From: an uncultured SAR324 cluster bacterium
Lineage (GTDB): Bacteria > SAR324 > NAC60-12
Assembly (NCBI GenBank): GCA_902562015.1
Contig: CACERX010000002.1
Span: 1-64,000 of the forward strand
DNA: 64,000 bases
Direction: 5' to 3'
Below, piece by piece: positions 4,484-53,837 of the stretch. The notes below the pieces were generated by a model, which did no database searches, had not been told where the DNA came from, and saw nothing but the letters and a program-made list of their open reading frames with translations. How positions within the stretch are numbered: the stretch's first letter is position 1; each line of letters opens with the position of its first letter. Made by a program: the position numbers and the translations under genes.

Positions 4484-5518
4484 ATGAGAGTTTCCTCATC
4501 AACATTTATTTTATTTTTCAACCTCCTGCTTGGAGGCATTGCCTCATACATTGTAGGCTCTCTATTGAGCACATGGATGCACTATGAGGTCGTGTCTTTT
4601 TCTGAGTCAATGCTTGGCAGACCTGCGATTATAAAAGATAAACTTCCTTTTGATCCTGGTAAATCTGAGAATTCTTTTAACATTATTTTGGAACGTAATG
4701 TATTTAATGCACAAAAAATCGAAGTAGAATTACCTGATGAACCTCAGCCCGAGTTAGTAATTAGAAATACTGAAAATTTAGGGGAGGAAATGGTCGAACA
4801 AACAAGTCTAGCACTCGCACTTACGGGAACAATGATCTACGGCCCAAAGACCTCATTTGCCTTTATCAGTAAAAAAAACAATCTTCAAAATTATGTAATT
4901 TTTGGAATAGGGGATTGTTTTCATGCAAATACTAGCCATCATGATGTTGAATGTACGAAGGAAAGTGTAAAAGTACTAGAAATCAAAGATCGTTGGGTTT
5001 TGCTTCTGCATAATGGGAAAAAGCAGGCATTGCGTATGAGAAACGCACTTCCCGCAGCAAAAATAGCTGATGTTGTGGAAAAATCAAACAATTTGCAGAA
5101 AAATACTTCTAACAATCTAAAAACTGCCGCATTAGTTGTTTCTCCAAAGGAAAAATCTGCTTCAGAAAATACTCCGTCTTCACCAGCTACTGTTAAGAGT
5201 GAAAATACTTTTCACTTTGAGCGCGTATGGGTTGATGAACAATTGGCAGATTTTGGCCAGCTTTTGAATGATGCCAGAGTTATTCCAACTAAGAAAGACG
5301 GTAAGTCATTTTTCATGTTTCAGTACATAAAAAAAGAGAGTATATATGAGCAATTGGGATTGAAACCAAAGGACATAATATTGGAGATTAACGGATTTGT
5401 TGTGGATACAGTTGATAAAGCCCTAAAGCTGTTGGAAGTCCTTCAGTCTGAAAGAGAAATAGCCCTGATTGTTGAGCGGGAGGGGAATCCTGTAAATTTT
5501 CATTACTACATTGATTGA
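4484..5518 (+). CDS. type II secretion GspC-like protein with PDZ domain
   Basis: 344-residue bitopic inner-membrane protein. One N-terminal helix (about residues 6-28) is followed by a periplasmic linker and an HR-type domain (NIILERNVFNAQ and LALTGTMIYGPKTSFAFIS, a pattern typical of GspC homology regions). A low-complexity Ser/Thr/Lys linker (about residues 195-235) leads to a C-terminal PDZ domain (about 245-340, with YEQLGLKPKDIILEINGF). This order matches GspC, which links the inner-membrane platform to the GspD secretin. No other gsp gene is in the window; the neighbours are aroQ and meaB. The assignment rests on domain order and short motifs, so it is good but not certain. Confidence 0.75.
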   Translation: MRVSSSTFILFFNLLLGGIASYIVGSLLSTWMHYEVVSFSESMLGRPAIIKDKLPFDPGKSENSFNIILERNVFNAQKIEVELPDEPQPELVIRNTENLGEEMVEQTSLALALTGTMIYGPKTSFAFISKKNNLQNYVIFGIGDCFHANTSHHDVECTKESVKVLEIKDRWVLLLHNGKKQALRMRNALPAAKIADVVEKSNNLQKNTSNNLKTAALVVSPKEKSASENTPSSPATVKSENTFHFERVWVDEQLADFGQLLNDARVIPTKKDGKSFFMFQYIKKESIYEQLGLKPKDIILEINGFVVDTVDKALKLLEVLQSEREIALIVEREGNPVNFHYYID

Positions 5519-51722: not shown

Positions 51723-52094
51723 ATGAATAATATTAGTTATATACATAAATCTCCTGCTTTTACCATCCTAGTAATTATTTTTTCATTTATTGGAATAATT
51801 TCTAGCTTTCAATACTCTAAATATAAAAATTCTTTAATCAACGAATCATTTAAATATTCTTCTGCCATATCAAAAAAAAATTATTCTGATTTTAATAATG
51901 ATTACGGAAGAACTGATTTAGACTATGAAAGATTAAAATATAGTAAATATCCGATTGGCTCTGTACCTGTTAAAGTTGTACTAGGAAAGATCAAAAAAAT
52001 TGAAAATCCTTATTTACCTAGGCTGCATTTAGCATTTTTAAATGAAGGTAAAAACTTTATTAGTTTAAATGATCATTTGTTATTATTAGATTAA
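51723..52094 (+). CDS. hypothetical small membrane-anchored protein
   Basis: 123-residue protein with one N-terminal helix (about residues 12-28), then a polar Lys/Tyr/Asn-rich part. Very AT-rich. It lies about 80 bases downstream of the promoter that overlaps the palindrome and heads a run of five same-strand genes reaching the peroxiredoxin. The C-terminus LNEGKNFISLNDHLLLLD is acidic and hydrophobic. No family recognised. Confidence 0.6.
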   Translation: MNNISYIHKSPAFTILVIIFSFIGIISSFQYSKYKNSLINESFKYSSAISKKNYSDFNNDYGRTDLDYERLKYSKYPIGSVPVKVVLGKIKKIENPYLPRLHLAFLNEGKNFISLNDHLLLLD

Positions 52095-52155
52095 ATATAT
52101 TAAATAAATTAATTAGATAGAAGAGTACAAAAATACTCCTAAATATAAATTTATA

Positions 52156-52458
52156 TTGAGATATAAAGTGGATTTTTTCCAATCATTAGAAAATGTAATT
52201 CAGTCGATCGAAAACAATAATCTAAAGACTGTATCTGGTAAAAGTAAACTCTCAATTGTAGTAGAGAATAAATATGAAATATTTCTGACGCATTATCCAT
52301 TATGGAACAATGAGGAATTTTTATATTCTATAGGCTGTATGTTAAATAAGACTATCCTTGAAAAGAATATTCCGGAGGAGCTTGTTGCAGATAAATTTAT
52401 TGAATTAAAAAGAAAAAATACTAGTCAATTTATTAATCAAAACATCGTATTAAATTAG
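52156..52458 (+). CDS. hypothetical small protein
   Basis: 100-residue AT-rich protein, probably soluble, mostly helical with one beta-like stretch (KLSIVVENKYEIFLTHYP). Start TTG at 52156, or GTG at 52168 (residue 5). The next gene starts eleven bases after its stop, so they are cotranscribed. Not recognised. Confidence 0.5.
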   Translation: MRYKVDFFQSLENVIQSIENNNLKTVSGKSKLSIVVENKYEIFLTHYPLWNNEEFLYSIGCMLNKTILEKNIPEELVADKFIELKRKNTSQFINQNIVLN

Positions 52459-52469
52459 TTAGTAAACAA

Positions 52470-53045
52470 ATGAAATTATTTAAACGTGAACCATCTATCA
52501 ACCATGATTATTTCCATATTGTTAAATCTGTTTATCCCAAAATTATTGATAGTATCGATAGTATATTCCTATCTTTTAAGGAAAATAGAGATGCAAGTAC
52601 GTCCTTTGTAAAATATTTCGAAATAGGACATAGAGAAATTCATCTAGTTGATAATTCTAACATGTCTTGTAGTGGTGTGAATGATTTACTAAGTGATTTA
52701 TTTGTTTCCTTAACTAAGTTTGACAGTAAGTCTTTATATTATGATATCCCTGATTTGTTTTATAATTACCATGCAGTTCATTACTATCATCAAATTAAAG
52801 AAATTATAGTAAGTTTAGATAAAAATAGTGTTCCATCAAATAAAATTGTTGATTATCTTATTAAATATGAAATCGAAAGGCATGAAAAAAATGAATGTCA
52901 TTGTGGTGAAGATCATAATTTATTAGATTCATATAAGTTAAAAGAATTATTAACAAGAATATTAGATTATTATTATTCGGTAAATAATCACTATATCATT
53001 GGAAATAGTATTAATTATCAAAATGAATACAAATATTTGAATTAA
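52470..53045 (+). CDS. hypothetical protein with a Cys-His cluster
   Basis: 191-residue AT-rich helical protein, rich in His and Tyr. The segment ERHEKNECHCGEDHN (about residues 137-151) could bind metal, which fits its place between zinc and iron uptake genes, but this is weak inference. No signal peptide. glutaredoxin follows after 40 bases. No family recognised. Confidence 0.6.
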   Translation: MKLFKREPSINHDYFHIVKSVYPKIIDSIDSIFLSFKENRDASTSFVKYFEIGHREIHLVDNSNMSCSGVNDLLSDLFVSLTKFDSKSLYYDIPDLFYNYHAVHYYHQIKEIIVSLDKNSVPSNKIVDYLIKYEIERHEKNECHCGEDHNLLDSYKLKELLTRILDYYYSVNNHYIIGNSINYQNEYKYLN

Positions 53046-53085: not shown

Positions 53086-53337
53086 ATGGATATTAAATTA
53101 AGTGGGAATGTCATCATTAGACATCAATCAGTTCCTGAATGTCAGTGGTGCGACAAAGCTAAAGAATTTTTTGAAGAGAAAGGTTTGAAATATACTGTAA
53201 TTAATTCTGATAAAAGATTCTTTGGTGAGGTGATGAAAAACACCAAATCAACAGCAGTACCACAAATTTTAATTAAAGGAGAATTTGTTGGTGATTATCA
53301 CGATATGATTAAACATTTTGAAAAGGAGAAAGAATGA
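53086..53337 (+). CDS. glutaredoxin
   Basis: 83-residue thioredoxin-fold protein with the redox pair Cys19 and Cys22 (CQWC), cis-Pro segment TAVPQILI and the glutathione-contact GDYHDM. Normal glutaredoxin length. Its TGA stop overlaps the ATG of the peroxiredoxin gene (ATGA), so the two are translationally coupled. In Prx5-type systems a glutaredoxin reduces the peroxiredoxin, sometimes as one fused protein, so this one very probably serves the neighbouring enzyme. Confidence 0.93.
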   Translation: MDIKLSGNVIIRHQSVPECQWCDKAKEFFEEKGLKYTVINSDKRFFGEVMKNTKSTAVPQILIKGEFVGDYHDMIKHFEKEKE

Positions 53338-53822
53338 AAGTACCTAATACTACTTGGAGAATTCGTAAAGGACCAGATTGGTTTAATGAATCTGCCCAAG
53401 ATTATTTTTCAGGTAAAAGATCTCTTGTAGTATCTTTGCCTGGTGCATTTACACCTATATGAAGCGAGATGCAGCTTCCAGGTCTGGATGCTCTTTATGA
53501 AGATTTCAAAGCAAAAGGTATAGATGAAGTTTACTGCATGTCAGTGAATGATTCATTTGTAATGAATGTTTGGGCTGAAACGCATGAAATCGAAAATGTT
53601 AAAATGATCCCTGATGGTAGCGGTGAGTTTACTAGGGACATGGATATGTTGGTATGGAAGCCAGCACAGAATTTTGGATATCGAAGTTGGAGATATGCAA
53701 TGACGTTAAATGGAATGGAAGTAGAAAGAATGTGGGTTGAGGATGGAAAGAACCAAATGGGACTTGACAGTGATCCATATGAAGTTACTAAACCAGAAAA
53801 TATTTTAAAAAACATCCCTTAG
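53334..53822 (+). CDS. selenocysteine-containing peroxiredoxin (Prx5-like)
   Basis: 162-residue Prx5-like peroxidase that reduces hydroperoxides. Translation from the ATG overlapping the glutaredoxin stop gives a normal N-terminus, then LVVSLPGAFTPI, then TGA at codon 43 (53460-53462), then SEMQLPGLDALYEDF. In Prx5 proteins the motif is PGAFTPTCS, so TGA occupies exactly the peroxidatic Cys position. The frame stays open and homologous on both sides, including DEVYCMSVNDSFVMNVW. A SECIS hairpin follows the TGA. The intact second half and coupled start argue against a pseudogene. Standard gene callers would truncate it or start at 53469. Sec needs SelA, SelB, SelD and tRNA-Sec elsewhere in the genome. 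Confidence 0.93.
53460..53462 (+). other. in-frame TGA read as selenocysteine (Sec43)
   Basis: The codon lies at the peroxidatic position of the peroxiredoxin, between PGAFTPI and SEMQLPG. The rest of the gene remains in frame for 119 more residues. Confidence 0.92.
53463..53493 (+). promoter_or_regulatory. bacterial SECIS element
   Basis: Hairpin in the coding sequence: AGC (53473-53475) pairs with GCT (53490-53492), a T-T mismatch follows, TCC (53477-53479) pairs with GGA (53486-53488), and the loop is AGGTCT (53480-53485). The same loop AGGUCU with C-G closing pair is found in the E. coli fdhF SECIS, as I recall it. The number of bases between TGA and the loop is 17 in both. SelB binding would recruit Sec-tRNA here. 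Confidence 0.9.
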
Positions 53823-53837
53823 AAAATTTCTAAGGGA
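53815..53837 (+). terminator. hairpin at the end of the peroxiredoxin gene
   Basis: TCCCTTAGAAA and TTTCTAAGGGA form a perfect eleven-pair inverted repeat with one central base. It overlaps the peroxiredoxin stop codon (53820-53822). Only a short GTCTTT follows, so termination strength is uncertain. Confidence 0.55.

Follow-up and report, generated by a model that had tools for sequence, protein, structure and literature searches.

The glutaredoxin (Grx) and peroxiredoxin (Prx) genes that adjoin each other in a contig of an uncultured SAR324 cluster bacterium (CACERX010000002.1, assembly GCA_902562015.1, the first 64,000 nucleotides of which constitute the window analyzed here) raise the question of whether the TGA inside the Prx frame is read as selenocysteine (Sec), and of how such a gene came to lie in this chromosome. 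The original prediction, made from the letters of the window, was of a selenocysteine peroxiredoxin, based on three signs held to be independent, namely the position of the TGA, the continuity of the frame, and a SECIS-like hairpin. All three hold, although the hairpin taken alone is not statistically significant, and the identification is supported by the recurrence of the TGA in relatives, by the hairpin when considered across the set of homologues, and by a tRNA-Sec and SelB in the genome of a relative. We consider it highly probable that UGA43 is, as predicted, read as Sec and that the gene is akin to phage genes, an estimate that sets the direction of any transfer aside. The phage type of the window gene and the presence of its TGA form on phage contigs are additions to the original prediction.

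The start codon of the Prx gene (53334-53336) overlaps the TGA stop of the Grx gene (53335-53337), as had been described. Translation with TGA as U bears out the predicted 162-residue product with a frame that is intact on both sides of the TGA, which is the only one in this frame; the frame ends at a TAG (53820-53822). Codon 43 does fall at the peroxidatic position, being aligned with the Cys of PGAFTPTCS in PDB 1nm3, but the motif itself had been slightly misquoted, as the window reads PGAFTPI-U-S and not PGAFTPT-U-S. The suspicion that the gene is liable to truncation in annotation is borne out by database proteins of 117 or 116 aa (P0109, P0114, P0121), which match the ORF starting at 53469 (Table 1). 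No further in-frame TGA in the window appeared credible when the list was judged by eye with no homology comparison. Upstream of Grx are three small ORFs (51723-53045) that are all present in L033, the last of them also in L034 (both introduced below); none of the three matches a Pfam or PHROG family, and for the ORF at 52470-53045 we recovered no viral relative either. A perfect inverted repeat, noticed by eye at 53815-53837, extends across the Prx stop codon and is possibly part of a terminator.

Table 1. Features of the glutaredoxin-peroxiredoxin locus (positions in the 64,000-nucleotide window)
Feature	Position	Strand	Basis
Glutaredoxin, 83 aa, PECQWC (CxxC type)	53086..53337	+	Pfam Glutaredoxin 43.2 bits; ORF list
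Proposed selenoperoxiredoxin, 162 aa, Redoxin/Prx5 type, Sec at residue 43	53334..53822	+	Translation with TGA=U
UGA codon 43, proposed Sec, peroxidatic position of PxxxTxxC/U	53460..53462	+	1nm3 alignment; same codon in relatives
SECIS-like hairpin, apical GGUC within AGGUCU, first loop G 19 nt after UGA	53473..53492	+	RNAfold, fdhF register
117-aa ORF with ATG after the TGA; routine annotation could call it instead of the full gene	53469..53822	+	ORF list

The window Prx is recognized by the Pfam Redoxin (75 bits) and AhpC-TSA (40 bits) profiles, but its best family is a phage one, the phage peroxiredoxin PHROG 2281, which it matches with 206.6 bits across residues 1-160 (profile positions 2-160 of 168) and to which the peroxiredoxins of cyanophages and of the Pelagibacter phage HTVC008M also belong. 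In the INPHARED collection (50,697 records), 96 records match the window protein, all with less than 60% identity; of five that were fetched, four show Cys at the codon in question, and the remaining record, missed by the search pattern, carries the annotation of a single unbroken CDS. The closest sequence with a solved structure is 1nm3, HI0572 of Haemophilus influenzae (E 8.6e-40), a Prx5-Grx hybrid with both domains fused in one chain. The two systems have in common the PGAFTPxC and RSWRY motifs and the pairing of Prx with Grx, and they differ in that HI0572 has Cys where Sec is proposed for the window gene, and in that the window encodes the two parts separately, with Grx first and the Prx gene overlapping its end, in place of a single Prx5-Grx chain. 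P36, T40, and R120, presumably the catalytic residues of the Prx5/Redoxin family, are invariant in 26 aligned sequences; an AlphaFold model built from these 26 rows had a mean pLDDT of 59.6, too low for use of the fold. Against PrxU (NCBIfam NF040737), a peroxiredoxin family with Sec members, the protein P0001 reached 23.6 bits, well short of the curated cut-off of 270.

The hairpin downstream of the TGA has the apical loop AGGTCT (53480-53485), closed by a C-G pair and beginning 17 nt after the TGA, precisely as first noted. The resemblance to the SECIS of Escherichia coli fdhF also proved correct: the 41-mer in question, which 5368 of 5426 E. coli genomes contain and which is annotated as fdhF in the three listed, can be superimposed on the window hairpin in the same register with no internal gaps, the two sharing the AGGUCU loop, the C-G closing pair, and the distance from the UGA while differing in the stem. 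By itself, the hairpin of the window does not stand out from dinucleotide shuffles of its 46 nt (z +0.76; 151/200 at least as stable), and a synonymous randomization gives p=0.063 (n=300). Across the homologues, a hairpin is present in each of the 19 distinct TGA segments (the window, L033, L034, and 16 viral ones); 17 have the loop at nt 19, and the other two, with a different stem, have it at nt 21. The mean stem score of these segments is 8.9 versus 5.28 (sd 0.39) in synonymous recodings that keep each protein sequence, and none of 500 recodings scored as high; the 19 segments are mutually related and do not amount to 19 independent events. For eight chosen representatives of the TGA form, 0/1000 synonymous recodings score as high. 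In contrast, 21 Cys segments show no excess of the hairpin (4.48 vs 4.41; 197/500 as high). The RNAfold z-scores follow the same division, with a mean of -1.50 for the 19 TGA segments and -0.13 for 17 Cys segments (one-sided Mann-Whitney p 2.9e-5, with the rows being related); both this and the stem-score comparison are confined to segments with the PGAFTP-type pattern, which places L107, for example, outside them. The stem scarcely varies, and covariation is thus thin, being limited to three two-sided changes, two of which come from the added fdhF row; in some relatives the apical loop reads GGGC, GGCU, AGUU, or GUU. The hallmark of a SECIS, a hairpin downstream of the UGA with G among the two leading nucleotides of its loop, is supported at the level of the set of homologues, the single hairpin not being significant by itself.

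A scan of genome contigs for relatives of the window gene yielded four loci, two with the TGA (L033 and L034, respectively 99% and 96% identical to the window protein) and two with Cys codons (L035 and L036, at 51% and 49%). L034 bears the title of a SAR324 single cell; it shares synteny with the window across 11.5 kb (84% DNA identity), as does L033 across 5.5 kb (98%). The latter contig (CAJWRJ010000042.1) is titled Legionellales, a label we doubt in light of the 98% identity to the window and of a bin with no SelB or tRNA-Sec over the cut-off; misbinning of a SAR324 contig is the probable explanation. Among viral contigs, a first scan recovered 32 relatives, 15 with the TGA and 17 with Cys codons, and 24 IMG/VR contigs overall carry the TGA form with the pattern PGAFTP-[IT]-TGA-Ser, with a frame that remains open before and after the TGA (that of L009 and L031 is cut downstream by the end of the contig). 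Two pairs of contigs among the 24 have identical segments (L076/L093 and L091/L095). A variant pattern with TCN directly after the TGA was found in none of the viral contigs.

This distribution bears on the plainest alternative, that the TGA is a sequencing error or the nonsense mutation of a pseudogene in an ordinary Cys peroxiredoxin. A single base separates TGC or TGT from TGA, and there are close Cys homologues at 80-87% identity; nevertheless, the same TGA recurs in the 24 viral and two cellular contigs from separate assemblies, which makes error or nonsense mutation hard to sustain, the frame downstream is maintained, and the hairpin has no comparable excess in the Cys homologues. We regard this alternative as most improbable. 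A second way to dispense with Sec would be a termination at the TGA, with the ATG at 53469 starting a separate C-terminal protein. That ORF exists and has its counterparts in the three truncated database proteins, but the catalytic motif is absent from the piece it encodes, relatives conserve the 42 codons that precede the TGA as the N-terminus of Prx, and sequences of the L010, L021, and L076 types have no ATG at the equivalent place. Two separate products are thus very unlikely, if marginally conceivable. Finally, the TGA might be read as Trp (code 4), and this is how the protein database mostly presents it: among 120 matches listed of 3367, the catalytic position is occupied by W in 94, by C in 23, and is missing in three truncated sequences, so that the catalytic residue is largely hidden from database users. 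P0002, P0005, and P0006 are among the homologues with Trp at this position. These letters are most likely an artefact that conceals selenoproteins, as would result from TGAs on short contigs being read by translation table 4. Of the 48 mechanical ORFs in the window with 130 aa or more, 17 end at a TGA, which also serves as a stop in the 11 other contigs counted, and two phage contigs code for a tRNA-Trp with the anticodon cca; the ordinary use of TGA as a stop together with this tRNA argues against code 4. Moreover, Trp has neither a thiol nor a selenol and is therefore unfit as a peroxidatic residue, and the relative described next possesses tRNA-Sec and SelB, all of which leaves the Trp reading scarcely credible. 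The reading of UGA43 as Sec is the one we pursue below.

The original prediction named a search for the genes of Sec decoding among its checks, and this could be performed in relatives. The genome of L034 (1.9 Mb, and apparently incomplete) has a tRNA-Sec over the cut-off (57.5 bits; also called by ARAGORN as tRNA-SeC (tca)) along with SelB in full length (377 bits); searches of the same 1.9 Mb for SelA and SelD found neither. Both are, however, present across most of its phylum: in 52 genomes, including that of L034, matches over the cut-off were obtained for SelB in 48, SelA in 43, and SelD in 44. As far as the genomes of relatives show, the absence of selB, selD, and tRNA-Sec, which the prediction had itself put forward as grounds for abandoning it, is not observed. 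As a separate observation, 43 of the 45 SelD rows over the cut-off in this phylum (e.g., L063-L066) contain exactly one internal TGA, so that SelD, too, is probably a selenoprotein in these genomes.

The contigs with the TGA form include several of clear phage character. In the 32-kb record L083, genes for a sliding clamp, both clamp-loader subunits, RegA, and a dUTPase are located near Grx-Prx, with a DNA polymerase and a DnaB-like helicase farther along; L093 has a clamp gene, and L139, L140, and L141 when pooled (24 proteins, with counts per family) show SbcCD, a late sigma factor, helicases, and a clamp loader. Thus, T4-type replication genes accompany the proposed Sec-Prx in L083, L093, and the pooled L139/L140, with part of the proteins having been scanned in some of the records. 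Others code for an endolysin, exonucleases, and PhoH (L012), ribonucleotide reductase and thymidylate synthase (L091), or PhoH (L095). A uniform phage reading does not cover every record, however. The 19 proteins scanned in the L095 record belong mostly to metabolic families with no structural hallmark, and the transporter-like proteins of L008 match families of unknown function or none, again with no structural hallmark among the proteins scanned. By eye, an ammonium transporter, a phosphate permease, and an asparagine synthetase are seen beside the TGA Prx in L008/L141 (16.8-kb record), and the L021 record, which may be cellular, displays several transporter-like genes.

The pairing with Grx is shared by 12 of the 24 phage records, in which a relative of the window Grx (57-85% identity) is directly upstream of the TGA Prx. 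A search with Grx recovered seven more phage contigs (L127-L133), five of which (L127-L131, 12.7 to 117 kb) match Prx residues 120-161 only, with no Prx match in L132 and L133. Downstream of Grx in the 117-kb contig L131, what is left of Prx (5247-5380) is frame-broken and devoid of the catalytic part, and the surrounding 10 kb have high tblastx similarity to L083. This would fit a natural loss of Prx, as might befall a gene whose benefit is limited to certain hosts. None of the 24 phage records, all fragments, has a tRNA-Sec over the cut-off; nine have weaker matches, and those compared (L003, L006, L008) coincide with ordinary tRNAs. The lack of a tRNA-Sec over the cut-off implies Sec decoding by the host, and phages with the TGA Prx probably depend on Sec-decoding hosts.

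In a tree of 68 rows (which includes 19 of the 120 database matches and excludes duplicate loci, the partial L031 and L032, and sequences missed by the pattern), the window gene falls with L033, L034, and one database protein inside a supported set of 29 rows, the remainder of which are viral contigs or database proteins of no known context. Of its 57 inner forks, 19 are open, and some long branches meet. Between the Cys rows and the others, at least four changes fall on supported branches, which points to repeated switching; Sec and Cys thus seem to have replaced each other several times in this family. Within the 52-genome phylum, an orthologue (96%) of the window Prx is found in a single genome, and six further genomes have only distant relatives (at most 46% identity), none with an internal stop. 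An empty site beside the iron-transporter gene was not obtained, the next-best relative being only 56% identical. Exchange between phage and host would be the simplest history, with the more likely direction being from phage to host. The opposite course, that a native SAR324 selenoprotein was captured by phages, is compatible with the Sec reading and accords with the breadth of the Sec machinery in the phylum and with the cell copies being 96-99% alike in a syntenic chromosomal segment; yet, the single orthologue among 52 genomes, the greater diversity of viral than of cell rows in the tree, and the phage PHROG as best family all speak against it, and we hold it to be possible, though rather doubtful. 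We regard it as likely that marine T4-like and other phages code for true Sec peroxiredoxins with their own SECIS and no tRNA-Sec, that decoding by the host would boost peroxide defence during infection, and that the SAR324 copy would be a phage gene that moved into the host chromosome. The window gene belongs to a clade of phage-type peroxiredoxins, the TGA form of which occurs in marine phages, including T4-like ones.

Based on these considerations, we propose that Grx-Prx constitutes a two-gene unit in a SAR324-like bacterium, in which the SelB and tRNA-Sec of the host would insert Sec at UGA43 via the adjacent downstream hairpin, a step that we infer from the parts. The product would be a single-Sec peroxidase of the Prx5 type, with Sec43, assisted by T40 and R120, reducing peroxide, and the resulting selenenic acid would probably be restored by glutathione and the co-translated CxxC Grx. 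Fused Prx5-Grx enzymes of the HI0572 type operate by a glutathione/glutaredoxin cycle, and the window gene pair could be a split version of these. As the 162-aa product has no cysteine other than C68, the overlapping Grx would most likely take part in such a cycle.

Sec peroxiredoxins of the sea are already on record (PMC2398784, PMC9402790), as the original prediction had stated; a table from the Global Ocean Sampling study includes 253 sequences with TxxU (PMC2398784). These Sec peroxiredoxins resemble the window gene in having Sec at the peroxidatic position and in coming from ocean microbes, and differ in that the table files them under pfam00578, whereas the window gene matches best with Redoxin (PF08534) and the phage PHROG. 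In a text search of that paper, phage and virus have no occurrence and viral has one, and the words phage, virus, and viral are absent from two reviews searched likewise (PMC13188914, PMC9312934). According to a 2021 ocean survey, the families examined, named ones aside, have no or very few viral sequences (PMC9402790). Elsewhere, huge phages with tRNA-Sec genes are reported (PMC10747093), selenocysteine figures in the reference list only (PMC7029224), and two SAR324 cells are given in a table (PMC5029168). A literature search that placed most subscription journals and all preprints outside its scope showed, among the papers listed, none on a phage-encoded selenoprotein of the Sec-Prx kind. 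Phage carriage thus appears to be the new part, while the Sec peroxiredoxin itself belongs to a known marine kind. Selenoprotein genes are usually regarded as cellular, and viruses of bacteria appear to carry host-dependent ones. If this is true, UGA-Sec genes of phages would tie phage fitness to Sec decoding by the host, might serve as a host-range marker for uncultured phages, and would explain some of the marine Sec-Prx reads while offering a route for the spread of selenoprotein genes.

The TGA-Prx contigs also yielded a further RNA feature: three of them contain a permuted tmRNA (Rfam RF04321, 82-89 bits), at 8334-8632 in L091, 10306-10604 in L095, and 3893-4157 in L077, for which ARAGORN predicts the tags ANNADYTPAQVALAA / ANNADYTSASYALAA.
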